Origin: Lachnospiraceae bacterium
Lineage (GTDB): Bacteria; Bacillota; Clostridia; Lachnospirales; Lachnospiraceae
NCBI GenBank assembly: GCA_017556805.1
Contig: JAFYMC010000036.1
Span: 62,001 to 126,000, forward strand
DNA length: 64,000 nucleotides
Direction of reading: 5' to 3'
Numbering within the stretch: position 1 is the first letter of the stretch; every line of letters starts with the position of its first letter. A program made the position numbers and the translations under genes. Under the pieces are notes generated by a model that saw nothing but the letters and a program-made list of their open reading frames with translations, searched no databases and was not told where the DNA came from. Below are positions 13,856 to 62,956 of this stretch, in pieces.

Positions 13856-13865
13856 GGAGAGAATC

Positions 13866-14639: not shown

Positions 14640-14731
14640 TCGGGAAGAGAAAGAGAGTATTTCGGGGATGGCGTGTTGAAACGGAAGCCATCGACCGGCT
14701 TAGAACATGAATAGAGAGGTAACGAAGGGAC

Positions 14732-16021: not shown

Positions 16022-16145
16022 TAAACAAATGCATCGTTCTCTCATCTGCCGGTTGAAAAAATCTCGTTTCAGAAGTTATTGCGATACATGCTGTTTGCAC
16101 TATAATGATAAGAGCTCCAATCTAAAGAAAGATGAGGAAACAGAT

Positions 16146-16349
16146 ATGACAAACTCGATAGGAAATCAAATCAAAATTCTTCGTAAGGCAAAAGGAGTCA
16201 CCCAGGAGGAAATGGGGGCAACGCTCGGAATCAGCTATCAGGCGGTTTCAAAATGGGAGAATAGTACCGCGCTGCCGGATGTTCAAATGATTCGAAAATT
16301 GCAGATTATTTCGGAGTCACATTCTTGCGGTAACAGGGGATGCGCTTGA
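16146..16349 (+). pseudogene. XRE-family HTH regulator, frameshifted and truncated
   Basis: ATG 16146 begins a typical Cro/C1 helix-turn-helix (IGNQIKILRKAKGVTQEEMG, then GISYQAVSKWE and PDVQMIRKL). After RKL the frame reads unrelated residues to a stop at 16349. Shifting frame by one base at about 16303 restores the expected family sequence (ADYFGVTF), but that frame stops a few codons later. The gene is therefore a remnant with a 1-bp deletion and a lost C-terminus. It lies directly before the TetR promoter. Confidence 0.65.
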
Positions 16350-16375
16350 CAAGTGACCGTTTGGTCATGTATAAT
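16346..16375 (+). promoter_or_regulatory. Promoter of the TetR-family gene
   Basis: A perfect -35 TTGACA (16346-16351) and -10 TATAAT (16370-16375) have an 18-bp spacer. The spacer is filled by operator 1, so repressor binding would block RNA polymerase directly. Confidence 0.85.
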
Positions 16376-16396
16376 AAAGGTGACCAAACGGTCACC
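16352..16396 (+). promoter_or_regulatory. Paired palindromic TetR operators
   Basis: Operator 1 (16354-16367) is TGACCGTTTGGTCA, between -35 and -10. Operator 2 (16381-16394) is TGACCAAACGGTCA, at the expected transcription start. Operator 2 extends to an 18-bp palindrome (16379-16396). The two copies are exact reverse complements and share half-site TGACC-N4-GGTCA. This is a classic negative autoregulation layout. Confidence 0.85.
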
Positions 16397-16423
16397 TTTT
16401 GCTTTGTAAGAATGGAGGAATGC

Positions 16424-17029
16424 ATGGAACAGATAACGGACAACTCGACGAAAAGCAGAATCTTAGACGAGGCCCTGGTAATGTTTGCGGAAAACGGTTA
16501 TAAAGGGACCAATTTACGTGACCTGGCTGCTCGTCTCGGATTGAGTAAGTCTGCCCTCTATAAGCATTATGAAAGTAAGGAAGCGATATGGAATGCGCTT
16601 CTTGACCGGATGGAAGTTTATTATGGGGATCGGTTCGGTTCTGCGGAGAACATGCCAAAAACGCCGAAGTCCTGTGATGAATTGTTTCATTTAACCATGA
16701 ACATGATTGATTTTACGGTACATGATGAGCGGATTATACTTACAAGAAAGCTGTTGTTGACCGAGCAGTTTCATGACGAGAGGGTGTGCAGACTGGCAAC
16801 GAAGCATTTTCTGGCAGGGACGCAAAGAATGTTTACCACGCTTTTTAGAGCTATGATGGCAGAGGGGATTATGAAAAAGGATGACCCGGAGATGCTTGCG
16901 TTTCTCTATACTTCACCGGTAACATCGCTGATTCAGCTTTGTACCAGAGAGCCGGAACGGCAGGAGGAAGTGATGGGGCAGATAGAGATGTTTGTGAAGT
17001 ATTTTATTGATACCTATGTTGAGGTTTGA
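16424..17029 (+). CDS. TetR-family transcriptional regulator
   Basis: The protein has 201 aa. GGAGG at 16414 favours ATG 16424 over ATGs at 16412 and 16340. The N-terminal TetR_N domain is clear (RILDEALVMFAENGYKGTNL, then AARLGLSKSALYKHYESKEA). The C-terminal ligand domain is about 140 aa and helical, with no recognisable ligand signature. It probably represses its own promoter through the two operators. The stop is 22 bp before the PfkB gene, so the kinase is likely in the same transcript and may act on the inducer pathway. Confidence 0.92.
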   Translation: MEQITDNSTKSRILDEALVMFAENGYKGTNLRDLAARLGLSKSALYKHYESKEAIWNALLDRMEVYYGDRFGSAENMPKTPKSCDELFHLTMNMIDFTVHDERIILTRKLLLTEQFHDERVCRLATKHFLAGTQRMFTTLFRAMMAEGIMKKDDPEMLAFLYTSPVTSLIQLCTREPERQEEVMGQIEMFVKYFIDTYVEV

Positions 17030-17051
17030 TTCTAAAACAGGAGGGACTTTT

Positions 17052-17960
17052 ATGAGTTATGATGTGTACATGCATGGACAGGTATTGGGAACCCACTCCT
17101 TTTTGTTAAAGGGAGATTTTTTGAAGCCGGATGAGTATTCGGAGCTTCGGGCGAAGTACTTTCTTCCGGGGGGAGAGACCGGAACGGCGGCTACGGTATT
17201 GGCATCCCTTGGGGTAAGCGTAAAGCTTGACGGTACCCACATCGGAACCGAGGTGGCACCCCTTCTTAAGGAATTTTACAAGGACAAGCCGGTGGATTTA
17301 TCTTCTCTTTACTTTGACCCGGATTATGAGGGACTGATGGACTATGTGGTAATTGCGGGCTTGGTGCGTTCGCCGATGGGGGTGTTCCAGTCTTTGTATG
17401 AGCCGGGGGCTAAGAGGCGTTGGAGTATGCCGAAGGAAGCGGATGTCATAGGCTGTAAGGTGGCGGCAATCGACCCGTTCTTTATCGAGGCAACCCAGGC
17501 TGTAGCAGAGCTTTGCGTGAAGCATCAGAAGCCGTATGTGACCATTGATTGCAGACACGACAGTTATTTACATCAGCATTGTGCCATCAACGTGGTGTCA
17601 AAGGAATGCACCTCTTCCGAAGTTTATAAGGGAAAAAGTTTGGAAGAGATTTATAAGATGCTTGTGGAAACTACCGACGGTCTTGTGATTATTACTTCCG
17701 GTGAGAATGACATGTTGTACGGAAGAAAGGGCGAGCCGATGAAACGTATGAAACCGTTTTCCGTGGAGGTAAAGAGTACCCTCGGTGCCGGGGATACCTT
17801 TAAGGCCGGTTGCGTTTACGGCTTGCTCCACGGTATGAAGGATGATGAGTTGGTACGCTTTGCAAGTGCTTGCTCCGCCATTGCGATTTCAAGATTTCCG
17901 TTACCTCTTAATCCGCCGACCATGGAGGAAGTGAAGACACTCATAGAGAAAGGAATGTAA
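17052..17960 (+). CDS. PfkB-family carbohydrate kinase
   Basis: The protein has 302 aa with ATG 17052 after AGGAGGGACTTTT. The ribokinase-type fold is indicated by the N-terminal GGETGTAATVLASLG substrate region and the C-terminal PfkB signature STLGAGDTFKAGCVYGLL, with the catalytic Asp in GAGD. It phosphorylates a sugar or nucleoside using ATP; the substrate cannot be told from sequence. It is co-transcribed with the upstream TetR regulator, which may sense the substrate or product. The nucleotidyltransferase gene follows by 1 bp. Confidence 0.85.
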   Translation: MSYDVYMHGQVLGTHSFLLKGDFLKPDEYSELRAKYFLPGGETGTAATVLASLGVSVKLDGTHIGTEVAPLLKEFYKDKPVDLSSLYFDPDYEGLMDYVVIAGLVRSPMGVFQSLYEPGAKRRWSMPKEADVIGCKVAAIDPFFIEATQAVAELCVKHQKPYVTIDCRHDSYLHQHCAINVVSKECTSSEVYKGKSLEEIYKMLVETTDGLVIITSGENDMLYGRKGEPMKRMKPFSVEVKSTLGAGDTFKAGCVYGLLHGMKDDELVRFASACSAIAISRFPLPLNPPTMEEVKTLIEKGM

Positions 17961-49563: not shown

Positions 49564-52224
49564 TCAGGCTTTTTGCATGCGCTTTTGCAGCTCCACAATC
49601 GGTAGCGGCAGGAGAGAAAGAATGGCCACGATACACCATGCACTCACAGAAAGCGGAGTGACGGAAAAAATCTTTGCCGCAAACGGAAATGTGATGACGC
49701 TGATTTGTAAAAAGGCGCAGAGGGCAAAGGAAAACAGCAGCTTTGGATTCGTGAAAAAGCCGATATCCGCAAGGGGCCGGTCGCTGCGCATATGGAAGGA
49801 ATGCACCAGCTGGGAGAGGCTCAACACTGCAAAGGTCATGGTGGAACCGGCCCCAAACCGGTGATTCCCGATCACATAAGCCATCAGGGAAATTGCCCCG
49901 ATCATCGCTCCTTCGAAAGCGATTTTGTAACCTAATCCTCCGGCAAAAAGACTTTTTCCGGTGTTACACGGCGGATGCTTCATGACGTCCTTTTCCGGAG
50001 GCTCTACTCCGAGAGCGGCAGCCGGCAAGGAGTCTGTGATTAAATTTACCCAGAGAAGCTGTACCGCAAGGAGCGGCGTCGGCATACCGAATAATAGCGC
50101 AAACAGGATCGTAATGATTTCGCCGATGTTACAGGAAAGTAAAAAGTGCACACAACGACGGACATTTGCGTAAATACTGCGTCCCTCCCGGACGGCGGCT
50201 ACAATGGTGGCAAAATTATCATCCATCAATACCATATCCGCTGCCTCCTTTGCCACATCCGTACCGGACCGTCCCATGGCGCAACCGATGTCCGCAGCCT
50301 TAAGAGCCGGGGCGTCATTAATCCCGTCTCCGGTCATGGCAACTACCTCACCTCTGGCTTGCAGAGCCCGGACAATTGCTACTTTATGTTCCGGTGCCAC
50401 GCGGGCAAAGACGCGGCAGGTGCCGACACAGTCAATTAATTCTGCATCGCTCATGGCGGAAAGCTGTGTTCCGGTAACCACCCGGTCCTTCGGTGTGCAA
50501 ATACCTAAATCCGCGGCAATGGCCCGGGCGGTGAGGGCGTGGTCTCCGGTAATCATCACCGGGGTAATGCCGGCTTCTTTGCAAACCCGGACACAGTCCC
50601 GGACCTCCGGGCGAGGCGGGTCCATGAGACCGAGAAAGCCCAGTAAAATGAGTTCCTGCTCCGCATCCGTAGTATTGCCGTCCGTATTGCTGATTTTACG
50701 GCAGGCGGAGTCCGTAAGCGGGCGATAGGCCACGGCTAGAACCCGTAGGGCGCGTTCGGCGCACCGGTTACAGTATTCGGTCAACGTCTGACGTAACGGT
50801 GCGGTAAACGGTGTCATGGAACCGTTGTCGTAGAGGGCGGTACAGCGGGAGAGCACCACCTCCGGAGCGCCTTTACATACAAGGAATGCATAGGTATCCT
50901 GTGGCATCCGCGGAAGTGTGGCGGCAGGTTTTCCGGAAAGCAAATGAACGGTAGACATGCGCTTTCTGGAGGAATCAAAGGGATATTCCGCCAGACGTTT
51001 ATAACGGGTATCCGGCATGGGAGAACACAGACCGGCTCCCTTGGCGGCATTTAATAAGGCCAGCTCCGTCGGCTCTCCGTTCCCGGTACCGTCGGCTTCG
51101 TAATAGGCATTGTTGCAAAGCGATGCGCACAAAAGTAACGGTGCCGCTTCCGGTGAAGTTTCGGTAAGGGGATTTCGACCGTCGGACAGTTCCGTCACGG
51201 TCATTTTGTTCTGTGTAAGGGTACCGGTTTTGTCGGAGCAGATAAAGGTGGCACTGCCCAGTGTCTCTACCGCCGGCAGGTGCCGGATAATGGCCTTTTT
51301 CTTTGCCATCCGCTGTACACCCAGAGATAACACGATGGTTACAATGGCAGGCAGGCCTTCCGGGATAGCCGCAACACCGAGGCTGACGGCGGTCATAAAC
51401 ATAGTGAACATGGGACGACCCTGTAGGGTGCCTAAGATAAAAACAAGAAAGCAGATGGCAAGAACCGTGATGCCAAGCACCTTCCCCGTATGGGCCAGGT
51501 GCTTTTTTAACGGAGTCTCCGGTGCGGTGTCCTGTTGAATCAAACCCGCGATTTTGCCCACCTGAGTCTGCATGCCGGTTTGAGATACCAATGCGGTGGC
51601 ATGCCCCGACAATACCACAGACCCGGCACTTACCATATTGATTAAATCACCGATGGGAGTGTCCTCTTTCAGGGTACAGGAGGCGTTTTTCTTCACCGGC
51701 TCCGATTCCCCGGTAAGGGCGGATTCGTCCACCTTCAGACCGTCGGTGTGCAGAAGTCTGGCATCGGCTGGGACCATGGAGCCCGCCGACAGCAGGATAA
51801 TGTCCCCCGGCACCAGTTCACGGGAAGGAACCATGGTACGTTTACCCTCCCGGATTACCTGTGCCTCCGGGGAGGAAAGCTTTTGGAGCATAGCCAGGGA
51901 ATGCTCTGCTTTGGCCTCCTGAATCACGCCGAGAACCGCATTCATGACCACGATAAAGAGGATAATGAGAGGCTCTGCAAAGTCAGCCTTCCCCTCCCAG
52001 AGAGAGGTCAGAAAGGAGATGAGGGCGGCTCCCAGCAGAATCAGAATCATGAAATCGTTGAACTGTTCCGCAAAGCGGGACAGCAGACTGCGAGGCTTTT
52101 GACCGGACAGTTCGTTGGTACCGTAGCGGGCAAGGCGCAGCTTGACTTCTTTCTCTGACAAGCCTTCCTCCTTGCTCTGCAGGGCGTCCAGGGCGTCCGG
52201 AACAGAAAGGGTATGAAGCTTCAT
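49564..52224 (-). CDS. Calcium-transporting P-type ATPase (SERCA-like)
   Basis: The protein has 886 aa, full length for a type IIA pump. Seen in order: A-domain TGES (LTGESEPVKK), phosphorylation motif ICSDKTGTLT, and hinge TGDGINDAPALKAADIG. Ca2+-site residues are all present: PEGLP in M4, NIGEI in M5 and NLITDSLPAAALG in M6. It moves Ca2+ out of the cytoplasm at the expense of ATP. RBS CGGGAG precedes the ATG. The next minus-strand gene is a small hypothetical. Confidence 0.95.
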   Translation of the reverse strand: MKLHTLSVPDALDALQSKEEGLSEKEVKLRLARYGTNELSGQKPRSLLSRFAEQFNDFMILILLGAALISFLTSLWEGKADFAEPLIILFIVVMNAVLGVIQEAKAEHSLAMLQKLSSPEAQVIREGKRTMVPSRELVPGDIILLSAGSMVPADARLLHTDGLKVDESALTGESEPVKKNASCTLKEDTPIGDLINMVSAGSVVLSGHATALVSQTGMQTQVGKIAGLIQQDTAPETPLKKHLAHTGKVLGITVLAICFLVFILGTLQGRPMFTMFMTAVSLGVAAIPEGLPAIVTIVLSLGVQRMAKKKAIIRHLPAVETLGSATFICSDKTGTLTQNKMTVTELSDGRNPLTETSPEAAPLLLCASLCNNAYYEADGTGNGEPTELALLNAAKGAGLCSPMPDTRYKRLAEYPFDSSRKRMSTVHLLSGKPAATLPRMPQDTYAFLVCKGAPEVVLSRCTALYDNGSMTPFTAPLRQTLTEYCNRCAERALRVLAVAYRPLTDSACRKISNTDGNTTDAEQELILLGFLGLMDPPRPEVRDCVRVCKEAGITPVMITGDHALTARAIAADLGICTPKDRVVTGTQLSAMSDAELIDCVGTCRVFARVAPEHKVAIVRALQARGEVVAMTGDGINDAPALKAADIGCAMGRSGTDVAKEAADMVLMDDNFATIVAAVREGRSIYANVRRCVHFLLSCNIGEIITILFALLFGMPTPLLAVQLLWVNLITDSLPAAALGVEPPEKDVMKHPPCNTGKSLFAGGLGYKIAFEGAMIGAISLMAYVIGNHRFGAGSTMTFAVLSLSQLVHSFHMRSDRPLADIGFFTNPKLLFSFALCAFLQISVITFPFAAKIFSVTPLSVSAWCIVAILSLLPLPIVELQKRMQKA

Positions 52225-52492: not shown

Positions 52493-53293
52493 ATGAATAT
52501 TGCATTTTGGAGCAATGTCAGGCACCAAAGCGGAGTGACATCCGGTGTCGCTTTAATCGGTATACTTTGGGTCGAATTGTTTGGGGAAGAAATTGCGGTG
52601 ACATCGAATCATATTTGCAATTTCGGTTTGGCCAAACGGTTATACGGCGGTAGCGGTTATGAGGAGCGAACTGCGCAAAAGGCATATCGTTATGTACTGG
52701 GAGAACCGGAATATTTTCGAATGCTGTATGGCGGAAAGGTCCGATCTACGCTTTGTTTGAATGATAATTTGCGTTTTATACCCATGGAGGGATACAAATC
52801 CGATTTGTTTGGTGCCGAGGGCTTAAGAGGGGTAAAGAAGAAGGTTACGGAGAACGAATACTTATTGATTGATACTGCATGCGGCTGTGGGTTGGGATCA
52901 CAGAAAATATTGGAGGAGGCAGAACTTACGGTGGTTATACTTCCTTCCGAGAAAGAAAGTGTAGATATGTTTTTTCAGTCAGAAATAAGTTTTAAGGAGA
53001 ACAGTTTTTTTATTTTAGGAAAGTATCGGACCGAGTCATCCTGTAAACCATCATATCTTACGAGTAAATATCGTATTCCGAGGAGTCGAATCGGTATGAT
53101 TCCTTATAATGCGGGATTTGAGCAGGCGATGAAAGAAGGGAGTACCATCGCTTATGTAACAAGGAATATGAATTGCTCAAAACGTAACAATGCATATCGT
53201 TTTATTCGATGTGCTACGGAAACGGTAAAAAAGCTGAGGGAATATGCCAACGGTAGGAGGGATTTGTTATGTGGAGAATGCGACGAAGTGTAA
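52493..53293 (+). CDS. CpaE/MinD-like protein with eroded P-loop (Tad-like locus)
   Basis: The protein has 266 aa. The N-terminus (MNIAFWSNVRHQSGVTSG) is laid out like the deviant Walker A of ParA/MinD/CpaE proteins found in Tad clusters, but the P-loop lysines are absent. A Walker B-like strand is visible (YLLIDTACGCG). It is likely to be a localisation or assembly factor without normal ATPase activity. It is the first gene of the tight run, and its 3' end overlaps the CpaB-like gene by 25 bp. Confidence 0.65.
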   Translation: MNIAFWSNVRHQSGVTSGVALIGILWVELFGEEIAVTSNHICNFGLAKRLYGGSGYEERTAQKAYRYVLGEPEYFRMLYGGKVRSTLCLNDNLRFIPMEGYKSDLFGAEGLRGVKKKVTENEYLLIDTACGCGLGSQKILEEAELTVVILPSEKESVDMFFQSEISFKENSFFILGKYRTESSCKPSYLTSKYRIPRSRIGMIPYNAGFEQAMKEGSTIAYVTRNMNCSKRNNAYRFIRCATETVKKLREYANGRRDLLCGECDEV

Positions 53294-54066
53294 GGAAAAA
53301 GCTTTTTGTATGCGGTCTTTGTATAGTGGGGCAGTTGGTGCTGTTTCTGGTGGGGCAGACGGTTGTATATCGAGTGGCAGCGGGAAAGTATGAGGCTGTA
53401 CTGGCGGAAAAGGAAGCAAAACTGGCTATGGCGGGCCGGACGGTCTATATAACGAAACGCGAGGTTAAGACAGGAGAACTATTGACGGAGGAGAATACGG
53501 AAAAACGGTATTTGTTGTCGGAACAAAATCCCCAAGCGTTGCCGCTTGAGGTATTTGGAATGAAGGCTTGCGCGGATTTGGAGGAAGGCGTAATAATCAA
53601 TACATCTCTTTGTTGTATGCCGGAGGTGATTGCTTCGGAGAGAATGTGTGTGTTTGATTATATACGGTTTGCGGAATGTTTCTCGGAGTATGATGTGGTT
53701 GATGTGCGTCTGCGTTATGCCAACGGAGAAAACTACTGTGTGTTAAAGAAAAAGCAGTTGCAAAAAGAGGATAAGGAATCGCTGTGTGCTTTTTATTTGA
53801 CGGAGTCGGAGCAATTGTTAATGAGTGCTGCCAGATATGACGTAGAGTGTTATGACGGAGCGGAATTATATCTGGTGGCTTTCAGGGAGGCAAGACTACA
53901 GGAGGATGCGGTAAGTGAATATTTGCCGTCGGTACAAGTGGTCGCTCAACTGCAAAACTGGTGTGATGAATATAAGGGAAACTATCAGGGGTGGTGCAGG
54001 AAACGATTGGAGTTGGAACAAAGGCTGGCAGAATATTATAAATTACGTCTTGCCGGTTTGATATAA
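53269..54066 (+). CDS. CpaB-like SAF-domain membrane protein
   Basis: The protein has 265 aa and GGTAGGAGGGATTTGTT precedes the ATG. A membrane helix (about 10-32) is followed by a coiled stretch and an SAF-type domain (about 60-118: RTVYITKREVKTGELLTEEN, CADLEEGVIINTSL), as in CpaB/RcpC of Flp pili. The remaining 150 residues form an outer domain with no recognised fold. CpaB is a periplasmic or surface assembly factor. The position after a CpaE-like gene supports the call. Confidence 0.75.
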   Translation: MWRMRRSVRKKLFVCGLCIVGQLVLFLVGQTVVYRVAAGKYEAVLAEKEAKLAMAGRTVYITKREVKTGELLTEENTEKRYLLSEQNPQALPLEVFGMKACADLEEGVIINTSLCCMPEVIASERMCVFDYIRFAECFSEYDVVDVRLRYANGENYCVLKKKQLQKEDKESLCAFYLTESEQLLMSAARYDVECYDGAELYLVAFREARLQEDAVSEYLPSVQVVAQLQNWCDEYKGNYQGWCRKRLELEQRLAEYYKLRLAGLI

Positions 54067-54076
54067 GGAGGCAGCA

Positions 54077-54736
54077 TTGAAAAGGAGAATCGGTTTTATC
54101 GGATGTTATAGTCATGATGTGATACTTATGTTAACCAGAGCAATGGCAAGTATGGGAAAGAAGGTGTTGCTTCGGGATTGTAACCGGCATCATACATTGC
54201 GCGCTTCATTGCCTATACCGGAAGATATGGAGACTAAATTAACTGTACTGGAGTATGATGGCTTTTGGTTTACGGAAAAGGGTACAGAAAGTGCAGTGAC
54301 AGAAGCGTTTGATTTTGAGTTGGTTGACCTTGGTATGGAAGGGGCGCAGGCAGATATTGTATCGTGTGGGGAATTGATTGTGATTACAGATATTTTATTA
54401 CATCATATACGCAGATTGGAGCGAATACAGATTCCGAAAGAAAAGGTAAAGATTTGTGTGATGAGGGATTCTTATGAGGAGGTATGTAAAAATGAGCAGG
54501 AGATTCAGAACTTTTTACAGTCCTTTCCCGACAAGAAAGTATTTTATTTGCCGATAGATGTGAGGGATGTAAAGAATCGCTATGTTTGTGAGACATTACA
54601 TGAATATAACATAGGCAAAGCATCTTATGAGATGCAGGATATGATATACCGATTGGCAAAGGGGTTCTGTCCGGAGTTCTCGGAAAAGGAAATCAGACGT
54701 TGCATAAAGCATAGAGAAAGGAGGCGGTATCGTTGA
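54077..54736 (+). CDS. ParA-like protein lacking a P-loop
   Basis: The protein has 219 aa and starts at TTG 54077 (AAGGAGG, 6 nt upstream). It has a Rossmann-like beginning (MKRRIGFIGCYSHDVILML) and a helix plus strand like ParA (ASMGKKVLLRDCN). A normal Walker A is missing: the loop reads GCYSHDV. A later FELVDLGMEGAQADIV resembles the switch region. The C-terminus is basic. It is a second ATPase-like protein in the locus, and overlaps the next start by 4 bp. Confidence 0.6.
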   Translation: MKRRIGFIGCYSHDVILMLTRAMASMGKKVLLRDCNRHHTLRASLPIPEDMETKLTVLEYDGFWFTEKGTESAVTEAFDFELVDLGMEGAQADIVSCGELIVITDILLHHIRRLERIQIPKEKVKICVMRDSYEEVCKNEQEIQNFLQSFPDKKVFYLPIDVRDVKNRYVCETLHEYNIGKASYEMQDMIYRLAKGFCPEFSEKEIRRCIKHRERRRYR

Positions 54737-55557
54737 AAATTATGGTATGGGGCCCTACGCCGTTTGCGGGCAGAAAAAGCGCAAATCTTCTTTTGCTGGC
54801 ATTACAAGCAGCGGAAGAAGACGGTAGGGAACAATTAGTGATACATGCAGATCCCGATGGGAGCGGACCGGAGCATTTTTTACTATCCGGGCATCACAGA
54901 AGACGAATGATGGAACAAAAGGAATTTGGGGTTGAATTCTTATGCAGGATGTTACTATGCGAACGTTTTACAAAGGAAGCAGTGAGGAATGCATCCTATA
55001 CCTTTGCCGATGGTAAACTACATGTTCTTCCGGGAGGGAGCCGAGGCTTTTATGAAGAAAAAGAAACGATGGAGACTATTTTAAATCTGATACAGGCGGC
55101 AGATAAGGAATTTCAAAATGTCTGGGTAGAGCTCCCGGCGGGCAGAATGGCGGAGAACGAAACGTTTTTTTGCGAAGCGGACTGCATTCTGGTCAATTTG
55201 ACACAAAGTCCATGGGAAGCAGAAAAGCTGTCTAAGCTTCCGGGATTTGAAAAGGCATTTTATGTTATGGGGGCGTATGAATCCCGCAATATTTATACGG
55301 TAGGGAATATGATGCTTTTATTTCCGGAAATAAGGGGAAGATGTGGAGCGGTTCCTTACTATCCGGAATTTTCCGAAGCCTGTTGTACCGGAGAAGCGGA
55401 ACGTTTTTGGATGCGGAAGGGAAGAGAAGCGGAGGAACATATATATCCGTGTTTTTTTCGAGAGGTAGAGCGGTTGTATAGAAAATGGAAAGAGGGGTGT
55501 GAGCGGAGGATATGCGGGGAAAGCGGCGACGGGATACAGACAGACCGGAGTTTGTAG
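54733..55557 (+). CDS. Third ParA-like protein, partial P-loop
   Basis: The protein has 274 aa and starts at TTG 54733, overlapping the previous stop (TTGA), with AAAGGAGGCGG upstream. The N-terminal strand-loop (MVWGPTPFAGRKSANLLL) keeps a Walker-A-like GRKS. A VWVELPAGRMAENE segment could be Walker B-like. The C-terminus is charged and Cys-containing. With the two genes at 52493 and 54077 it gives three related ATPase-like proteins in a row. The next gene starts inside its 3' end (46-bp overlap). Confidence 0.6.
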   Translation: MKIMVWGPTPFAGRKSANLLLLALQAAEEDGREQLVIHADPDGSGPEHFLLSGHHRRRMMEQKEFGVEFLCRMLLCERFTKEAVRNASYTFADGKLHVLPGGSRGFYEEKETMETILNLIQAADKEFQNVWVELPAGRMAENETFFCEADCILVNLTQSPWEAEKLSKLPGFEKAFYVMGAYESRNIYTVGNMMLLFPEIRGRCGAVPYYPEFSEACCTGEAERFWMRKGREAEEHIYPCFFREVERLYRKWKEGCERRICGESGDGIQTDRSL

Positions 55558-57161
55558 AACTAAAAAGCTTACGAGCGTATGTAAAATCAGCGATCAGAGA
55601 GTATTTGGAAAGTGATACTCCGTTTGGACTCCGAAAGGAAGAAAGAGAGAAATATCGCTTGCAGGTACAACGGTTACGGCATGCGTTGAGAACCTGTATT
55701 TATGGAGAAGGTGGTGAGAAGGATTATGTAAAACATTATATCATGCGTGAAATTGTAGGGTTAAATCTTTCGGTTTGGGAAAAGACTTGTCTTTTACCGG
55801 TAAACAATCCGGAAAAATTAACGGTTGAACAGCAATTTCGAATTATATTATATCGCTATATGAAACAATACGGAAAGGACGGATTTCGTAAATTGTGTGA
55901 GAAAGGAGGCTTACCCAGGGAAACAGAACGAGAGGATGGGAACTACTACGAAATTACAGAACAGGATATCAGACAAATTTATACAGACGAAACAATCATT
56001 TTAAGTAATCAGGAGATTATGGATTTGATATGCGATATGGTGTATGAAGGATTTGGACATGGGATTATTGATCGGTTAAGAGATTGCAGACTGGAAGGAA
56101 TCTCGGGAGGTGTAGCAGGTTTACCGGAGCAGTTTTTTCGCTATGAAACGATACGGAATAGAGAGTATGAGGAGAAATATGCCCACGACAGTGTGTTTGT
56201 TATGTTAAACGGTATAACGGTACGGCTATCGTTCTTAAGTTTTGGGAGCGAGCAAGAGCTGAAGCGGGTAATCAAATCATTGCTCCGGTTTGAGGCACCC
56301 GGAGAACTGTCCTACTATCGTCCGTACATGGTGAATGATATGAAGGACGGAAGTCGGGTGTTTGCCTGCAGACCGCCGTTTTCTGAAACATGGGCTTTTT
56401 TTATTCGGAAATTTGATTCTGCTGAAGAAAAAAAGCCGGAGGAATTAGTTATCGGAGAGGGGGCGGAGGATGTAATACAGGCGCTACGATATTTTGTAAG
56501 CGGCGGTTTACATATTGCGATTACCGGAGCTCAGGGGAGTGGTAAAACAACGTTATTGAAAGCATTGGTACGGTATATCAGTCCAAAATATAATTTACGA
56601 ATCGCAGAAAGCGTGTTTGAATTATGGATGAGAAGAGTGCTACCGCAGAGAAACATTTTGACCTTTCGGGAGACAGAGAGCGTGGATTCTACGGAAGGAC
56701 TGGATGCATTTCGAAAGACAGACGGTAATTGTTTAATGATGGGAGAAGTGGCTTCCATACAAGCAGCGGCATTAATGATTGAGTTAAGTCAGGTATCGGA
56801 ACAACAATTATTTACGCATCATGCCGTAACGACAGAAAAACTTTTGGGATATTTTAAAAATGCATTGTTGCGGACCGGAGTATATTCGGATGAGAAAATG
56901 GCACGAGAGCAGGTGGCGGAGGCCTTTGATATCCATGTACTATGCGAAAGAGATTTAAACGGAAAGCGCTATATAAAAGAAATTGCGGAGGTAAATGCCA
57001 CAGAAGGAGGAAGTATTAGGAGATTATATTGTTATAGGGACGGAAAATACGTGAGGGAAGGAATTCCGACGAAGGAATTGTTGGAGCGGATGAGAGTACG
57101 AATCGAGACAAAGGACAAAGAGAGGATAGGGAGATTTTTTGACGGAGGTGTGGAATTATAA
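55512..57161 (+). CDS. CpaF/TadA-like secretion ATPase
   Basis: The protein has 549 aa. Residues 1-260 are an N-terminal domain with charged helices. The motor domain has Walker A GAQGSGKTTL (about residue 345), a Walker B-like NCLMMGEVAS and the preceding acidic RETESVDSTEG region. Secretion ATPases of the CpaF type drive Tad pilus assembly from the cytoplasm. Start ATG 55512 has an SD only 2 nt away, so initiation may rely on coupling or on the GAGGGGTG 12 nt upstream. The downstream membrane gene follows closely. Confidence 0.8.
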   Translation: MRGKRRRDTDRPEFVELKSLRAYVKSAIREYLESDTPFGLRKEEREKYRLQVQRLRHALRTCIYGEGGEKDYVKHYIMREIVGLNLSVWEKTCLLPVNNPEKLTVEQQFRIILYRYMKQYGKDGFRKLCEKGGLPRETEREDGNYYEITEQDIRQIYTDETIILSNQEIMDLICDMVYEGFGHGIIDRLRDCRLEGISGGVAGLPEQFFRYETIRNREYEEKYAHDSVFVMLNGITVRLSFLSFGSEQELKRVIKSLLRFEAPGELSYYRPYMVNDMKDGSRVFACRPPFSETWAFFIRKFDSAEEKKPEELVIGEGAEDVIQALRYFVSGGLHIAITGAQGSGKTTLLKALVRYISPKYNLRIAESVFELWMRRVLPQRNILTFRETESVDSTEGLDAFRKTDGNCLMMGEVASIQAAALMIELSQVSEQQLFTHHAVTTEKLLGYFKNALLRTGVYSDEKMAREQVAEAFDIHVLCERDLNGKRYIKEIAEVNATEGGSIRRLYCYRDGKYVREGIPTKELLERMRVRIETKDKERIGRFFDGGVEL

Positions 57162-57169
57162 CCGGGTAT

Positions 57170-58579
57170 GTGATACCGATGCTGTGCTTTGTTGCAGTAT
57201 TAGTAATAGAGTATAGGGGATTTCAAAGAAGGACAAGAGAATATCGGGAGTTGGAACATTTCGCGGAGTTTTTGTCGGATCTAAAAAATCAATTCTACCT
57301 CTGTAAAAATATTACAGAGTCTATTTTCCGGGCAATGGAGCGGATGCCCGGAAGTCTGCGAAAAAGGTTGGAAGAGATATGCTTCTTACTGGAGGATGAT
57401 GTCGGAGGAACGACAATGGCGGAACCGGTTTTCCCGGAGCATCTGAAAAGTGTCCGGTTGTTTTGGGGGCAATGTCGGAGTGCGGTACGGTACGGAAGCG
57501 GGAGAAATAGTGCAGAGTCGGTATTTATCAAAAATATGACAGAACTCCGCAGAGATGTTCAAAATGAATGTTACCAAAGAGCTCAAGCGAGATATTTGTT
57601 TGCCGGGATGGGGGTGGTAGTTGCGTTGCCGGTGTTATTTTTGCCGTTCGTGAGATGGTTCGGAACCGTTACATTGGAGGAACTGAATGGTTTTTACAGT
57701 GGAATCTTCGGTCGGGCGGTTGTGTGTGTATTCTTTTTGCTGTCGGCAGGGTGTTATTTATTGCTGAATTTTGTGAGACAGGCAGATAAAAGAGGATATA
57801 CCAGACCGGAATTCATACGTCGATTTTTTTCTAGCACTGTATTCAGACCAAATAAAGAAGCTGAGAAAGAGAATAAGGCAGAAAGATACGGAAGAAAAAA
57901 ATTAAAGGAGGCAGGAATTGATGCAGACGGAAGGCAATACTGGATGATTTGCGGCATAGTTGGCGTAATCGGAGGGCTTATTGTTGCGATTTTGCTTTAT
58001 GATGTACCGGTTATGATGAAAACGGTGACGTGTATCGGTGGTGTCTTTGCGGGAATGGGTGTAATGATGTTTTTCTATAAATATCTGGCCTATTTGCGGA
58101 AGCTTGGGATAAAGAGTGAAGTGATGAGTCTGCAGGCCGTAATTCTTTTGTTGATTGATGTACCAAACATTACGTTGACAGAGATTTTGGATGTACTGGG
58201 AAATTGCAGTGAGTTATTTCAAAACCGTTTGTCGCGGTGTGCGGACGAATATGCTGCGGATGATGTTGTGGCGCTGGAGCAATTAGCGGAAGAGGATGAC
58301 ATGCAGGAACTTCGTCAATTGACCGGGCGCATGATTGCGGCAGAAAGAGTAGGATTGCAGACCGCATTTGAGGAGGTAGCAGCGGACCGACTTTTCTTTC
58401 GGGAACAACTGCGACTTGATTCTGAGTACGAGCAAAAGAAAAAAGCTGCGAACGCGCAAGTAATTGCTTTTTTACCCATGATGTTTTTATTGTTTGCATA
58501 TTTGATTTTGCCGTTCTTGGGCGCAAGTTTGGTACAGATGCGGGAGATATTTGCGGAGATGGAACAAATTCGTTTATAG
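57170..58579 (+). CDS. TadB/TadC-like membrane protein of the T2SF type
   Basis: The protein has 469 aa from GTG 57170. ATT 57155, 6 nt after GGAGG, would add IITGY and give a more natural membrane start. Six hydrophobic segments are visible: about 1-16, 145-165, 180-202, 255-300 (two helices), and 430-455. Cytoplasmic charged regions lie between them. Tad systems normally have TadB and TadC as two proteins with this layout; one gene here may replace both. A T2SF-type motif is not obvious by eye. Confidence 0.65.
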   Translation: MIPMLCFVAVLVIEYRGFQRRTREYRELEHFAEFLSDLKNQFYLCKNITESIFRAMERMPGSLRKRLEEICFLLEDDVGGTTMAEPVFPEHLKSVRLFWGQCRSAVRYGSGRNSAESVFIKNMTELRRDVQNECYQRAQARYLFAGMGVVVALPVLFLPFVRWFGTVTLEELNGFYSGIFGRAVVCVFFLLSAGCYLLLNFVRQADKRGYTRPEFIRRFFSSTVFRPNKEAEKENKAERYGRKKLKEAGIDADGRQYWMICGIVGVIGGLIVAILLYDVPVMMKTVTCIGGVFAGMGVMMFFYKYLAYLRKLGIKSEVMSLQAVILLLIDVPNITLTEILDVLGNCSELFQNRLSRCADEYAADDVVALEQLAEEDDMQELRQLTGRMIAAERVGLQTAFEEVAADRLFFREQLRLDSEYEQKKKAANAQVIAFLPMMFLLFAYLILPFLGASLVQMREIFAEMEQIRL

Positions 58580-58607
58580 GCAGGAATAGGAAGGAAAGTG
58601 AGTATGA

Positions 58608-59048
58608 ATGAGTCATGGATCGAAAGCATTATTATTGGCGGCCTCTACTATTATTACCTGTATTATTGTAGCCCTGGGGTTTCGGATGGCACGGGAGGCA
58701 AAACAGATTGGAAATCATGTGGTGGAAGAATTGCACCGGTATCGTACAACAATCGAAGAACAGGATTATACAAAATATGACGGAGCTACGGTGTACGGAA
58801 ATGATGTAGTAAATTTAATGAAAAAAGAATTTTCTGCGGGGAGATCAACCGTAAAAATAAGAGTGGAGACGGGAAGCGTCGGATTCACATATCAAGCCCC
58901 GGAGGATGTCGCAAAGGTACAGGAGTGGGAATCGGTGCACTATATCGTTCCGGTGGCAGAGTATGTGGGACGTGTTGTCAGAAACCGGAATGATGTGATT
59001 GTAGAACTTGTTTTTAAGAAAATAACGGAGGAGAAAGAGGATGAATAA
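58608..59048 (+). CDS. Pilin-like membrane protein 1
   Basis: The protein has 146 aa. One N-terminal membrane helix after a 5-residue lead (KALLLAASTIITCIIVALGF) is followed by a basic REAK turn and a beta-rich outer domain. It lacks the G/xxxxE prepilin cleavage pattern. The next gene encodes a paralog with the same layout. The 3' end overlaps that gene by 8 bp. A role as a pilin-like subunit of the locus is inferred. Confidence 0.6.
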   Translation: MSHGSKALLLAASTIITCIIVALGFRMAREAKQIGNHVVEELHRYRTTIEEQDYTKYDGATVYGNDVVNLMKKEFSAGRSTVKIRVETGSVGFTYQAPEDVAKVQEWESVHYIVPVAEYVGRVVRNRNDVIVELVFKKITEEKEDE

Positions 59049-59496
59049 CGGTTTAAAGGCATTATTGATTGCAGCAGGAATTATTATTACGTGTATTGTC
59101 GCAGGTCTGGCGTTTCAGAATACCCGTGAGGGAAAAGCGCAGGCCAGCAGTGCGTTTGCACAGTTTAATACGACCATGAGTGAGTATCAGGATTTGGGAA
59201 AGTCCATGTATGACGGATTATTGGTATCCGGTGCAGAGGTGCGTCGTTTGATTGAAAACAGCATAGCCGCGAAAGAGTATGTGCAGATAAAGGTGGTGAC
59301 CGGAGACGGTGCGGAGAAAGGCTATGTGTATGAAACGTGGGATCAGGAAAACAAGAAACTTTTAAAAGAAAGCAAGGAATTGCCTTCGGACGATAAGGGA
59401 AGTGAAGGCTATATCAATTCCAGAGCGGTCTTTTTGGGAAGTATTGCAAAGGATGACAACGGAATTATCGTGCAGATTACGTTTGAACAGCAATGA
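59041..59496 (+). CDS. Pilin-like membrane protein 2 (paralog of 1)
   Basis: The protein has 151 aa. RBS GGAGGAGAAAGAGG precedes the ATG. Its start (LKALLIAAGIIITCIVAGLAF, then NTREGK) matches the previous protein closely. The outer domain contains a repeat-free beta region ending in DDNGIIVQITFEQQ. The tandem pair suggests a duplicated major or minor subunit. No prepilin site is seen. The codon style matches the neighbouring genes. Confidence 0.6.
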   Translation: MNNGLKALLIAAGIIITCIVAGLAFQNTREGKAQASSAFAQFNTTMSEYQDLGKSMYDGLLVSGAEVRRLIENSIAAKEYVQIKVVTGDGAEKGYVYETWDQENKKLLKESKELPSDDKGSEGYINSRAVFLGSIAKDDNGIIVQITFEQQ

Positions 59497-59513
59497 GGGG
59501 ATGGATATAAGAT

Positions 59514-59675
59514 ATGACAGATATGACGGAGCATGCACTGGAATATGTGGTTGGCGGGATTTTGTTTTGTATCGCAATTGTGATGTTACTGTGGTTACAT
59601 AGCAGCTTTGTGCATCTGACAAAGGCTGTTGGAACATCTCCGGAGCGAGTCATTTTGTTTGAAAAGAAAGGGTGA
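59514..59675 (+). CDS. 53-aa single-pass membrane protein
   Basis: A short ORF (ATG 59514, TGA 59673-59675) follows the pilin-like pair with a weak GGGGATGG RBS. It has a hydrophobic segment (about 12-34: VVGGILFCIAIVMLLWLH) and a short charged tail. The stop overlaps the optional GTG start of the next gene. Its place in a tight run of membrane proteins supports it as real. Confidence 0.55.
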   Translation: MTDMTEHALEYVVGGILFCIAIVMLLWLHSSFVHLTKAVGTSPERVILFEKKG

Positions 59676-59680
59676 AAGAG

Positions 59681-60109
59681 ATGGAAGCATTCGGGCGTTC
59701 GATTGCGGTAATGCTTAGTATGGCAGGAATTGTGTTTTCTCTCCTTTTTTATAAAACGGCAGCCGTCCGGTGGCAGAAGACAGAAACGGTACGTAGTATG
59801 AGTCAGAGGTATGCGGAGTATGTGTTAAGCGTTAGGGAGATTCGCGCCTCCGATTGGAAGGTGTTTCGGGAACAATTGAATCGCCTTGGGGAATACCGGA
59901 CGGAGCTTGCCGTATATGAAAGAAAAAGGTATGAGGGAGAACGAGGCAGAGTGTATTTGTATGAGGAATCGGACGTAGAAGAGGAAGACAGAATGCTTAC
60001 GGACGGAAGTTATATCCGGCTCGTTGTTACGGAAGCAGAAAATGGGAAAATGGAGACAATACTTTACGGAAACGGTTATCCGATTATTGCCGGAGGTCGG
60101 GTGGGATGA
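59681..60109 (+). CDS. Tad-locus membrane protein, minor pilin-like
   Basis: The protein has 142 aa from ATG 59681 (a GTG at 59672 is in frame). An N-terminal membrane helix (about 6-25, SIAVMLSMAGIVFSLLF) is followed by a charged outer domain ending in LYGNGYPIIAGG. It is shaped like TadE/TadF pseudopilins but has no clear family motif. The stop overlaps the next start by 4 bp (ATGA). Confidence 0.55.
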   Translation: MEAFGRSIAVMLSMAGIVFSLLFYKTAAVRWQKTETVRSMSQRYAEYVLSVREIRASDWKVFREQLNRLGEYRTELAVYERKRYEGERGRVYLYEESDVEEEDRMLTDGSYIRLVVTEAENGKMETILYGNGYPIIAGGRVG

Positions 60110-60546
60110 ATGCATTAGAGAAAATAGTGGATTTACTGGCTGCGTCCTGTTTACTTTTTTTGCTGCCGCTTTTTTTCTATGGGAGCGGAAAGAGGGTATG
60201 TCAAACGATGCTTGCGGGACAGGCAGGAGAACATTTTTTAAATACAATCAGTACTTCGGGAGAGATTACGCTGTCCGTTTGGATGCAATTGGAACATTCG
60301 ATGGAACGGTTCGGTTGTGAGGCAATTGATCTGCAACGGGAGCGGTATGTGTTTGAACCCGGGAAAGAGGAAGGTAGTGTGGTGGAACGGGTTTATACGA
60401 ATGGAAGGGAAGAACTGCTTGCGGAAATACAAGAGGAAGGCGGTAGCCGGTTAAGAAAGGGAGATCGGATAACGCTTACGCTGTATGTAAATGAGTTCCC
60501 GATGGTCTATAGCGAATGTATCAGGACGGGGGCGAACGGTGGGTGA
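60106..60546 (+). CDS. Tad-locus membrane protein, small
   Basis: The protein has 146 aa. A short N-terminus is followed by one membrane helix (about 8-26, LLAASCLLFLLPLFFYG) and an exposed domain with repeated Glu/Arg. It overlaps both neighbours by 4 bp, so it is translated with them. The fold is unknown. Confidence 0.55.
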   Translation: MNALEKIVDLLAASCLLFLLPLFFYGSGKRVCQTMLAGQAGEHFLNTISTSGEITLSVWMQLEHSMERFGCEAIDLQRERYVFEPGKEEGSVVERVYTNGREELLAEIQEEGGSRLRKGDRITLTLYVNEFPMVYSECIRTGANGG

Positions 60547-61298
60547 AACTGCATCATTTTTCAATGCTTTTTGCAGTAATTGCGATAGGATTTTTTGTGA
60601 CGGCACAAACTGCTCTTGTAACGAAAATGCAACGCGAAGGACGGAAAAAGACCGAGTATGATTGCCTTGTATCAGCGGTTGATGCTACGGTGGAAACGGT
60701 GTTTCACGGGATGGACAATACCGTATCTCCGGTAACGCTTCGGCAGGCGGAGGAGGTGTTTTTTCAGACCTTATCTGTTTTGCGGGCCGGGACTGCGGAC
60801 CGGGCCGCATGGGAGGCTGTAAGAGAGAGGGTTCCGTGTCTGGTTGTCTTTGAGGAAAGAGGATATTACAAATATTCCCTCTGTGGTGAGGAAGGATACG
60901 GTTGGTCGGAGTTGGTGTTATATGATTGGGGTGAATTACCGAAGATGTTCTTTGAGGAAACGGAAGAACTGTTGGAGCAATACCACAATCTGCAATACCG
61001 CTCGGATAAAAGTTACCGGATGGAGCAGGCGGGACAGGGAATATGGGAACAGTGCATAACACCTCCCTGTGTATTTGCGATATATGCGCCGGAATCCATA
61101 GGGTTGCCGGAGGATATCACAGGTTTTTTGTATGCGGCATCCGGAAGGGAATACGAGGCTTACTACGTAACGGAGGATAATTACTGTCATTTGCCGTTTT
61201 GCGAGGCATACACAGAAGAGAATGTGATAGCACGTTATGCGACTCAGCGGGAGAGCGCAGAGGACGGGGCACTTCCTTGTGAGCATTGTCTGAAATAA
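60543..61298 (+). CDS. Tad-locus protein with Cys-containing outer domain
   Basis: The protein has 251 aa from GTG 60543 (overlaps the previous stop by 4 bp). One N-terminal membrane helix (about 6-22, FSMLFAVIAIGFFVTAQ) is followed by an outer domain with several Cys (CPCEHC-like end: LPCEHCLK) that may form disulfides or bind metal. It is the last gene of the run. After it a promoter for a separate small gene begins. No domain recognised. Confidence 0.55.
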   Translation: MKLHHFSMLFAVIAIGFFVTAQTALVTKMQREGRKKTEYDCLVSAVDATVETVFHGMDNTVSPVTLRQAEEVFFQTLSVLRAGTADRAAWEAVRERVPCLVVFEERGYYKYSLCGEEGYGWSELVLYDWGELPKMFFEETEELLEQYHNLQYRSDKSYRMEQAGQGIWEQCITPPCVFAIYAPESIGLPEDITGFLYAASGREYEAYYVTEDNYCHLPFCEAYTEENVIARYATQRESAEDGALPCEHCLK

Positions 61299-61417: not shown

Positions 61418-61609
61418 ATGGATAATGAAATGAGTGAAAAAGAATTAAAGGATATGATAATTAAAGAGTTTGTGGATTTGCAGAGATTAAAGACTGCGGC
61501 GGACAGAGATGCGGAAATTGCTTACCAGGAGAATGTATTAAAGGCCAGAATGCAATCTCTGGGAATTGCAACTGAGACTTTGGAACTGAGACAGTGCCAG
61601 GGTATATAG
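61418..61609 (+). CDS. Hypothetical small helical protein
   Basis: The protein has 63 aa, mostly charged helices (SEKELKDMIIKEFVDLQRL). RBS GGAAAGGAAGTGGAAGG. There is no membrane segment or Cys cluster. The lipoprotein gene follows 15 bp downstream, so they are co-transcribed. No family recognised. Confidence 0.55.
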   Translation: MDNEMSEKELKDMIIKEFVDLQRLKTAADRDAEIAYQENVLKARMQSLGIATETLELRQCQGI

Positions 61610-61624
61610 CGGGAGAAATGACAT

Positions 61625-62956
61625 ATGAAACGATATTTTAAGCATGCCGCACTTGTGCTGGCAATAACAACTATGCTGTCCGGGTGTTCCGGTTGTAATG
61701 TAAATACACCGGTTGTTACAACTCCTACGACAGCAGTAAGTGCTACCCCTGCGCCTACCGCTGAACCGACGGCGGAGGTAGTGCCTACCGTAGCTCCGAC
61801 TGCAGGGCCTACAAAGGAAGTGCTTCCGACAGCAACTCCGGAAATTGTACCGACAGAAGAGGTCACTCCCACGGAGGAGCCGGTTATTACTGAAGAGGCT
61901 GTTCTGACCGAAGCGCCGGTAGCTACCCCGACAGAGGCTGTGGCGCCTACTGCGGGACCGACCCTGACCCCAACGAGTACGCCTACTCCGGAGCCGACCG
62001 CAACCCCGGTACCTACGGCTACGGTAGCACCGACTGCGACTCCTACACCAAAGCCTACGGCAACCCCGAAGCCAACCACTACTCCGGTGCCGGAAGTCAA
62101 CGGTATTAAGGCCGGAGATTACTTCACTTTCGGCAATTATTATCAGACGAGACTTACGGGAGATGCGTTGACAGCAGAGATTTTGAACGCTTCTTACAAC
62201 TCCGCCGGAAAGGCAGTAATTAACGGCAAGGAGTATTATAAGATGCCGAACAAGTTCTATAATGAGTCCAACAGCTTAATTGGTTCCCAGGAACCGGAAC
62301 TCATTATTGACGCCTATCACTATTTTGTGAAGGAACCGGTAGAATGGCAGGTGCTGGAGGTAAAGGACGGAAAGGCATTTGTGGTGTCCAGATATGGTCT
62401 GGATAACCGCCAGTATCATCATGTTGACTGTATTGATGGAAACTGGATGAAATCCCTTAAGGTTACCTGGGAGATGTGCGATTTGCACTCCTGGATGAGT
62501 ATGGTTATGTACAACGAGATGTTTACCGAGGAAGAAAAGGAGAGCATCCTTCGTACTAAGGTAACGTGCCCGGACAATAAAACATACAACGTAGACGGCG
62601 GCAAAGATACCTACGATTATCTCTACATCCTCAGTAACGAGGAGACCGAGAAGTATTTCGGCAGGGAGAAGTGGATAGGTGCCGGTATCGGATATCGTAA
62701 CGAGAATTCCCTTTCACCGGCAACGGATTATGTAAAGGTACAGGGAGTCTGGAATGGAGCTTATCCGAATGATTGGGAATATCCTAACTGCAACTATTGG
62801 CTTCGTACTCCGGGAATGGACGTAAACTGGGCATCCTATATTGCTTCTAGCGGTACTCTCATGGATGGGATGTCTACATTAGTGACCGGATATCTGATTG
62901 TCCGTCCGTGTATGTGGATTGACCTTGCCACAGCAGAGGTAGAAAAAGTAGACTAA
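61625..62956 (+). CDS. Lipoprotein with Thr/Pro-rich linker and DUF6273-like domain
   Basis: The protein has 443 aa. The signal peptide ends with MLSGC (lipobox). Residues about 25-155 are a Thr/Pro/Glu-rich linker with repeats like TPTATPKPT. The C-terminal domain (about 165-443) follows the DUF6273 pattern: EWQVLEVKDGKAFVVS near the start, a middle WMSMVMYNEMF, and late YWLRTPG and GYLIVRPCMWI. That domain resembles C-type-lectin-like folds. It is probably displayed on the outer membrane face and binds a ligand. No catalytic motif is seen. Confidence 0.8.
   Translation: MKRYFKHAALVLAITTMLSGCSGCNVNTPVVTTPTTAVSATPAPTAEPTAEVVPTVAPTAGPTKEVLPTATPEIVPTEEVTPTEEPVITEEAVLTEAPVATPTEAVAPTAGPTLTPTSTPTPEPTATPVPTATVAPTATPTPKPTATPKPTTTPVPEVNGIKAGDYFTFGNYYQTRLTGDALTAEILNASYNSAGKAVINGKEYYKMPNKFYNESNSLIGSQEPELIIDAYHYFVKEPVEWQVLEVKDGKAFVVSRYGLDNRQYHHVDCIDGNWMKSLKVTWEMCDLHSWMSMVMYNEMFTEEEKESILRTKVTCPDNKTYNVDGGKDTYDYLYILSNEETEKYFGREKWIGAGIGYRNENSLSPATDYVKVQGVWNGAYPNDWEYPNCNYWLRTPGMDVNWASYIASSGTLMDGMSTLVTGYLIVRPCMWIDLATAEVEKVD

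Follow-up and report, generated by a model that had tools for sequence, protein, structure and literature searches.

A conserved Tad-related operon of Bacillota and its probable role as a divergent type IV filament machine

The 64,000-nucleotide (nt) stretch of Lachnospiraceae DNA analysed here (the window) carries at positions 52493-61298 an operon of eleven intact open reading frames (ORFs), all on the plus strand, whose products are related to the Tad, or type IVc, machinery. The tight spacing and overlaps described in the original prediction were borne out, with -46 to +28 nt between neighbouring genes and a single exception of 184 nt between genes 8 and 9. The protein families were lettered E (genes 1 and 4), S (gene 2), Z (gene 3), A (gene 5), F (gene 6), P (genes 7 and 8), Q (genes 9 and 10) and X (gene 11); the members of pairs 1/4, 7/8 and 9/10 each share one phmmer cluster. 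Relatives place the start of gene 9 at 59681 (142 amino acids, aa) rather than at the first-stage position 59672, and that of gene 11 at a GTG at 60543 (251 aa), which gives a 4-nt overlap with the gene 10 stop, rather than at 60516. A hydropathy scan found one N-terminal membrane segment in each of six proteins (genes 2 and 7-11), six segments in gene 6 and, in gene 1, a weak segment that scored 1.65 with the cut-off at 1.6 and in this MinD-like protein is probably not a membrane helix. Against Pfam, only gene 5 scored above cut-off; genes 1, 3, 4 and 6-11 gave no convincing family and none of the eleven proteins matched the A24 prepilin peptidase or Flp, nor did Pfam and NCBIfam scans reveal a secretin among them. 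Canonical profiles for comparison by hhalign were built from Tad loci found in this genome and in related ones; the hhalign E-values refer to single comparisons throughout. On these comparisons the operon seems to represent a so far undescribed branch within a known family of machines for surface filaments.

The motor is encoded by gene 5 (family A; 55512..57161), a secretion ATPase that profiles place in the TadA/CpaF class, with a long N-terminus and an intact Walker A motif, which matched T2SSE at 27.5 bits against a cut-off of 24.9. When the family A profile was compared with solved structures, CpaF (8rkd) was the best match with an E-value of 6.8e-26, followed by FlaI, an archaeal type II secretion-like ATPase, PilT and VirB11; this agrees with the CpaF-type ATPase named in the original prediction, and no unrelated family was matched. 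The Walker A motif was present in all 56 ATPase ORFs of at least 480 aa. In phylogenetic trees family A formed its own long-stemmed clade, apart from TadA, with support of 100/100. The trees carried a program warning that long branches meet, and for this reason we did not use them to judge age or kinship. As a side observation, the ATPase is present as two adjoining ORFs in three loci of the f59 genomes (L108, L115 and L116), and in the first two of these neither piece contains the Walker A pattern.

Gene 6 (family F; 57170..58579) encodes a membrane platform with two T2SSF-type domains in one chain. The N-terminal half of family F matched TadB at 97.4% and the C-terminal half matched TadC at 97.0%; the crossed pairs matched as well (96.0-96.6%), and unrelated control profiles reached 0.2-2.0%. 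On resampling with 16 TadB and 16 TadC sequences, proteobacterial ones included, the order TadB-TadC was obtained in 47 of 60 resamples and the reverse order in one of 60. The same test with Firmicutes sequences only was undecided, as the N-terminal half was TadB-like in 24/30 and the C-terminal half TadC-like in 12/30. Archaeal platforms are described as having TadC-like followed by TadB-like domains, going by the relevant passages of Denise et al. (2019, PMC6668835). Three haloarchaeal plasmid PilC proteins gave 74.9 for TadC against 61.9 for TadB in the N-terminal half and a tie in the C-terminal half (66.5 against 65.9), and a small archaeal platform profile matched one domain of family F at 66.8%. 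A 'pre-fission' platform with the archaeal TadC-TadB order was considered for gene 6 and rejected, given TadB-TadC in 47/60 resamples. The comparison favours a secondary joining of TadB and TadC domains in gene 6, with the archaeal control clear in the N-terminal half only. The single TadB/TadC-like protein noted originally is indeed a single protein, but it is not one half of the usual pair, since both domains lie in its chain. The combination of an extension ATPase with a platform of two T2SSF domains, by which type IV filament systems are recognised, is therefore present. Scanning Pfam member by member yielded no consistent family for the F, E or P proteins. In L108, L115 and also L077, the platform is present as two adjoining ORFs.

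Four further genes encode relatives of Tad partner proteins. Gene 4 (family E; 54733..55557) is TadZ/CpaE-like, the family E profile matching canonical TadZ at 97.5% with an E-value of 8e-12, and gene 1 (52493..53293), which clusters with it, would be a second TadZ/CpaE-like protein of P-loop fold lacking Walker A. Gene 4 itself reached NCBIfam CpaE_hom_Actino below cut-off (E 0.064), six of 33 E proteins touched AAA_31 when Pfam was scanned member by member, and the Walker A pattern was found in none of 69. Gene 3 (family Z; 54077..54736) is a degenerate MinD/TadZ-like protein, whose family profile matched TadZ at 90.9% (E 1e-6) and, weakly, the solved ParA structure 3ea0 (E 0.005); one of 51 Z proteins, that of genome G524, carries the Walker A pattern. 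Gene 2 (family S; 53269..54066) is CpaB/RcpC-like, with one N-terminal helix and a SAF-like domain that scored 14 bits in Pfam, below cut-off. Family S matched a four-member cluster of canonical CpaB proteins at 98.1% (E 1.2e-13); the one member of this cluster that was checked passes both RcpC and SAF of Pfam, and the S protein of the distant relative G524 passes SAF. The search of solved-structure sequences gave only noise for family E (best E 0.16) and family F (opioid receptors), and only weak FlgA matches for family S. The TadZ and CpaB profiles bear out the CpaE/MinD-like and CpaB/SAF-like proteins of the original prediction, and by them both the TadZ/CpaE and the CpaB/RcpC components of a Tad system are represented.

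The gene order is conserved well beyond this genome, and more so than expected by chance. Our first set of 38 loci consisted of the window, seven loci of metagenome-assembled genomes (MAGs) and thirty loci of family genomes. The order A-F-P..Q..X was kept in 28 of these 38 and in 20/20 class- or phylum-level loci, and Z-E-A-F in 27 and 19, respectively; a second E copy lies upstream in 13/38 first-set loci. Among the ten first-set loci without the full order, seven reach the end of a contig or of the fetched sequence (L051, L054, L055, L059, L067, L068 and L078), X was not recognised in L079 and L080, and L053 was counted without it because an overlap filter had removed Q, which is present there. 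L003, L011, L012, L083 (a 3.1-kb contig) and the canonical Tad controls L081 and L082 were excluded from these counts; L011 and L012 had been rejected as members on account of weak ATPase matches. Since the flanks vary among lineages, the unit is taken to be the operon.

A scan of GTDB contigs found the ATPase and its locus in eight MAG loci of Lachnospiraceae and Clostridia, seven at 68-77% identity and one, partial, at 63%. With the own genome included, the ATPase was detected in 28/200 Lachnospiraceae family genomes (1e-20), the P protein in 33/391 class-level genomes (1e-6) and the ATPase in at least 5/398 phylum-level genomes (1e-80), the last figure being a lower bound because the best three candidates per genome were scored. 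The ATPase was also found in 64 of 118 genomes of a second Bacillota family, f108 (1e-80). In addition, 25 plasmids matched it, 23 of them over more than 80% of its length; Paenibacillus, Lysinibacillus, Butyrivibrio, Cohnella and Alkalihalophilus are host genera among the matches listed. In the annotation of two of these plasmids, every gene of families E, Z, F, P, Q and X is labelled 'hypothetical protein'. Despite its wide spread, the system thus has almost no named parts besides the ATPase and the SAF-domain protein, and no description of it was found in the literature searched, which comprised open-licence PMC papers.

The distal half of the operon encodes short proteins anchored by one helix. 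Genes 7 (58608..59048) and 8 (59041..59496) of family P are pilin-like candidates, which begin with MSHGSKA and MNNGLKA, respectively, so that a short hydrophilic leader ends in Lys-Ala before the hydrophobic helix. In class III signals, as presented in the consulted sections of PMC10191384, the leader ends in Gly or Ala and is followed by 20-25 hydrophobic residues, Glu5 being frequent and not universal; the corresponding sections of PMC4371748 give Gly, Ala or Ser at -1, a charge at -2 for some peptidases and an acidic +5 residue in a subset of archaeal pilins. Our rule required that the leader end in Gly/Ala, that residue -2 be polar or charged and that the hydrophobic stretch be clean; the controls were 102 further ORFs from these loci whose products are anchored at the N-terminus. 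A class III-type N-terminus without Glu5 was found in 92/103 P proteins against 26/102 controls, and a cut directly after [KR][GA] was possible in 79/103 against 16/102. In none of the 103 P proteins is position +5 occupied by Glu or Asp, whichever permitted site is chosen. Residues 1-7 are the best conserved stretch of P, with M1, N3, K6 and A7 at least 90% conserved across 20 diverse members. The cut site itself is not fixed, because under the rule residues 4 and 7 are often both acceptable as the end of the leader; in gene 8 these are Gly4 and Ala7. The Flp pilin with Glu5 and Tyr6 that is typical of Tad systems was found neither by Pfam nor in the P N-termini. The original statement that the short proteins lack prepilin sites therefore holds for the Glu5/Flp pattern but is only partly right for family P, most of whose members have a class III-type N-terminus, and P is a fair pilin candidate on these features. 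A search of a phage collection with one P protein from the plasmid of Alkalihalophilus pseudofirmus OF4 gave no match. A side observation concerns L109 (7878-11166, genome G385), where six P-family ORFs, two of just 68 aa, lie in one operon of a 1.1-Mb genome.

Genes 9 (59681..60109) and 10 (60106..60546) are paralogous single-helix proteins of family Q and minor-pilin-like candidates; gene 11 (60543..61298), a larger single-helix protein of family X, ends the conserved core. The Q cluster comprises 40 proteins in 29 loci, and the X cluster, to which Pfam assigns no family, is present in 25. Some Q proteins have long C-terminal extensions, bringing them to 1012 aa (L052:12517-15555), 695 aa (L079:1479-3566), 465 and 1262 aa (L104:11004-12401 and 13275-17063), 581 aa (L102:4801-6546) and 510 aa (L103:5599-7131). 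Such extensions are carried by modular minor pilins, as far as the sections of PMC10191384 on these proteins go.

The peptidase that the original prediction did not see is indeed absent from the locus, where neither A24 nor TadV was found. Elsewhere in the genome there are two A24 genes: the first belongs to a separate canonical Tad locus (L081), and the second is close to genes for PilB/PilT-like ATPases. A24 was present in 47/47 family genomes tested, 27 with the locus and 20 without it, so that it is useless as a discriminator of locus carriers, and in 31 of 36 class- or phylum-level locus genomes (30 above cut-off and G450 below). The five genomes in which no A24 match was found (G272, G317, G411, G516 and G551) are 98-99% complete drafts of 40-220 contigs. 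PilB-like ATPases are present in G317 and G516 and canonical TadA-like ATPases in G272 and G411; as four of the five thus keep such ATPases, assembly gaps are likely. G551 has no match to A24, PilB or canonical TadA (1e-6), yet it keeps the ATPase of the present system at 9e-218. An A24 gene within 20 kb on the same contig was found in G524 only, some loci being cut by contig ends, and one lies 24 kb from the locus in G391. In the single-contig genomes G907 and G946 the only A24 gene lies about 6 kb from a canonical TadA and 2.2-2.3 Mb from the operon.

Since P has a class III-type N-terminus, a peptidase encoded elsewhere could serve genes 7 and 8, and the simplest reading is that the peptidase of the genome's other type IV systems is borrowed. 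The canonical locus L081 (G000:C14) encodes TadE-like proteins with Ala, not Gly, at the likely -1 position, and its peptidase may therefore accept the Lys-Ala leaders of genes 7 and 8. The locus L101 of G524 is a distant member with a protein-kinase-like gene upstream and an A24 gene, a 174-aa open frame, just downstream of the operon; its genome has 11 T2SSE matches (1e-6).

A large exported protein recurs downstream of X in relatives. DUF5704 was found in all six of those scanned (L053, L056, L057, L063, L112 and L150), with S-layer homology (SLH) proteins beside it in L056 and on the OF4 plasmid; InlB- or immunoglobulin-type repeats take its place in the close relatives L004, L006 and L009 and in L055. 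The N-terminus of the partner protein is signal-like by eye, and neither a C-terminal membrane anchor nor LPXTG was seen in the five partner proteins inspected. In the window, a surface protein of 2476 aa starts at 63158 on the plus strand, runs to the window end at 64000 and continues to G000:C1:132589 (L148:159-7589). Its middle combines BspA-type leucine-rich repeats with InlB-type repeats; the protein also contains Listeria-Bacteroides repeats and stretches weakly resembling RCC1. As Pro/Thr-rich low-complexity stems had partly joined the cluster of downstream proteins, its N and C modules were tested again. The N module matched the DUF5704 proteins at 97.1% (E 5.8e-11) in a profile-profile comparison, which alone found the match, plain hmmsearch with this module having missed the protein. 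The C module scored 45.7 bits with a four-sequence profile, against 2.2 for the best of 200 shuffles. The 2476-aa protein and the DUF5704 proteins are alike at their ends only, and together look like a single family of cargo proteins in which the N and C modules are kept and the middle is exchangeable. Among the 200 family genomes, DUF5704 occurs in 25, the ATPase in 28 and both in 24 (Fisher 8e-26); in eight of these 24 the two share a contig and are no more than about 14 kb apart, and in 16 DUF5704 is on another contig. The link is for this reason not mere adjacency, with the proviso that contigs may break near the locus. The word DUF5704 was not found in the open-licence PMC papers searched.

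Between the operon and this surface protein lies a lipoprotein-like protein (61625..62956, plus strand) with a Pro/Thr-rich stem and DUF6273 (E 1.1e-21), which we infer to belong to the system; Pro/Thr-rich lipoprotein-like ORFs, not scanned for DUF6273, also follow X in L004-L007 and L009. A 63-aa ORF without a Pfam family, preceded by an AGGA resembling a ribosome site, is located at 61418-61609, between gene 11 and the lipoprotein. On the other side, a P-type cation ATPase gene on the minus strand (49564-52224) flanks the operon in divergent orientation; it lies in a patch where G+C is 55.7%, and six close relatives (L004-L009) have the gene as a flank too.

Based on these observations, we consider it probable, with moderate confidence, that the operon provides monoderm bacteria with a type IV filament machine that is divergent but related to Tad. 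The new branch of type IVc machinery suggested in the original prediction is supported by the profiles and by the conserved order without flp or tadV at the locus, an order that is not limited to one genome. In such a machine, the gene 5 ATPase would drive the one-chain platform of gene 6, the degenerate TadZ-like proteins (genes 1, 3 and 4) would dock or position it, and the CpaB-like gene 2 product would form an extracytoplasmic collar. P may be the pilin polymerised from the membrane, its short leader being removed by a borrowed prepilin peptidase or possibly kept, and Q and X may be minor-pilin-like tip or initiator subunits. The resulting filament or endopilus would present or push out an unanchored exported surface protein, the putative cargo being DUF5704 proteins in relatives and the 2476-aa BspA/InlB-type protein here.

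Several observations weigh against this reading. A tree rooted with PilB/PilT puts family A outside the group of TadA, CpaF, haloarchaeal ATPases and TrbB/VirB11 (97/92); the proposed kinship to Tad rests on the profiles, and the ATPase tree leaves the position relative to Tad unsettled. The class III-type N-terminus was found in 13/68 Q and 2/50 X proteins, not above the 26/102 of the controls, so that the test does not support Q and X as pilins. The P protein of G524, the sole relative with a peptidase adjacent to the operon, fails the N-terminal rule. P, Q and X reached at most 5.1% against a TadE-like profile and no curated pilin family above cut-off; among 35 members, single ones touched Pilin_N (E 0.037) and flagellin (E 0.059), both of them archaeal families, at the level of noise. 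As regards the cargo, the class-level overlap is just 6/9 DUF5704 genomes and 6/33 locus genomes (p 2e-5); DUF5704 occurs without the ATPase (1e-40) in G014, G285, G475 and G494, and the system without DUF5704 in the own genome (G000), G115, G096 and G199.

A possible reading, though not one that we would favour, is that the machine is a monoderm counterpart of type II secretion, in which a short endopilus pushes exported DUF5704 or BspA proteins across the wall and the S-layer, and not a surface pilus that carries an adhesin at its tip. The partner is large and has a signal-like N-terminus and no C-terminal anchor or LPXTG in the five proteins inspected, its middle varies between N and C modules that are conserved, and its co-occurrence with the system holds across contigs. 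These data do not separate a piston from a tip adhesin, however, and the SLH proteins seen in L056 and on the OF4 plasmid might just as well anchor a pilus to the wall.

It is rather unlikely that the divergent Tad-related machine goes as far as to constitute an unnamed class of type IV filament in Bacillota, with a joined platform, a dedicated family of modular cargo proteins, no peptidase of its own and Glu5-less pilins that are possibly uncleaved, serving for export or display in monoderms. We also think it unlikely that the machine is type IV-like and peptidase-independent, with P, Q and X uncleaved and neither a prepilin peptidase nor Glu5 in use. This would agree with an operon-linked A24 gene (within 20 kb) in G524 only, with the five of 36 distant locus genomes lacking A24 and the sub-cut-off match in a sixth (G450), and with G551, which keeps the ATPase without A24, PilB or canonical TadA; the first seven P residues are moreover conserved as such, and G524, with a peptidase at hand, lacks the P N-terminal pattern. 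On the other hand, A24 is present in all 47 family genomes, the genomes without it are drafts in which gaps are likely, four of the five keeping PilB- or TadA-like ATPases, and [KR][GA] before a hydrophobic stretch fits class III sites as set out in the pertinent parts of PMC10191384 and PMC4371748. A decayed or pseudogenised Tad locus, or a transfer module of a mobile element, is very improbable: the degenerate TadZ-like proteins, the 25 plasmid matches and the split ATPase ORFs of L108, L115 and L116 would fit it, but the ORFs are intact over great divergence with Walker A in 56/56, 28/200 and 64/118 genomes carry the ATPase, neither a relaxase nor VirB4 nor a coupling protein is recognised by Pfam in the eleven-gene operon, and 25/25 plasmids are typed non-mobilizable.

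If the reading as a divergent Tad-related filament machine is correct, it adds to the type IV filaments a branch with a one-chain Tad-type platform, and its pilin-like subunits would have a route round the rules of Glu5 and of a peptidase in the operon. It would also give a first context to DUF5704 and to the BspA/InlB-type giant protein, as proteins moved or displayed by monoderm gut and soil bacteria.

By profile, the system shares with Tad (type IVc) loci the class of the ATPase, the TadZ-like and CpaB-like partners and the platform domains. It differs in having the TadB-like and TadC-like domains in one chain, in having no Flp, TadE match or TadV at the locus, in an ATPase that forms its own long-stemmed clade, and in two or three TadZ-like proteins without Walker A. 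It was not filed as a Tad pilus because separate TadB and TadC, Flp, TadE and TadV were not found. With the pseudopilus of type II secretion and Com it may share its work, that of an endopilus moving an exported protein, but here the ATPase and the TadZ and CpaB relatives are of Tad type and no secretin was matched. Archaeal type IV pili likewise have two platform domains in one protein of similar length (674-701 aa on three haloarchaeal plasmids), and the consulted sections of PMC4371748 give the +5 acidic residue for a subset of their pilins only; the platform order reported for them in the passages of PMC6668835 cited above is TadC-TadB, in contrast to TadB-TadC in gene 6. Lastly, the 'no Flp_2' tad-like loci of Gram-positive bacteria, as portrayed in the passages of Imam et al. 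(2011, PMC3244431) devoted to them, encode no protein with an apparent prepilin motif and have Clostridia among their hosts; tadV is reported to be present, and their biosynthetic genes, 'with the exception of tadA', are described as distant from other tad genes. They resemble the present system in being Tad-like without an apparent prepilin motif, in their distant biosynthetic genes and in their clostridial hosts; by that published description they are set apart by tadV and an unremarkable tadA, whereas here tadV occurs in one relative and the ATPase stands apart. Within the scope of those passages, the 'no Flp_2' loci are the nearest published group.

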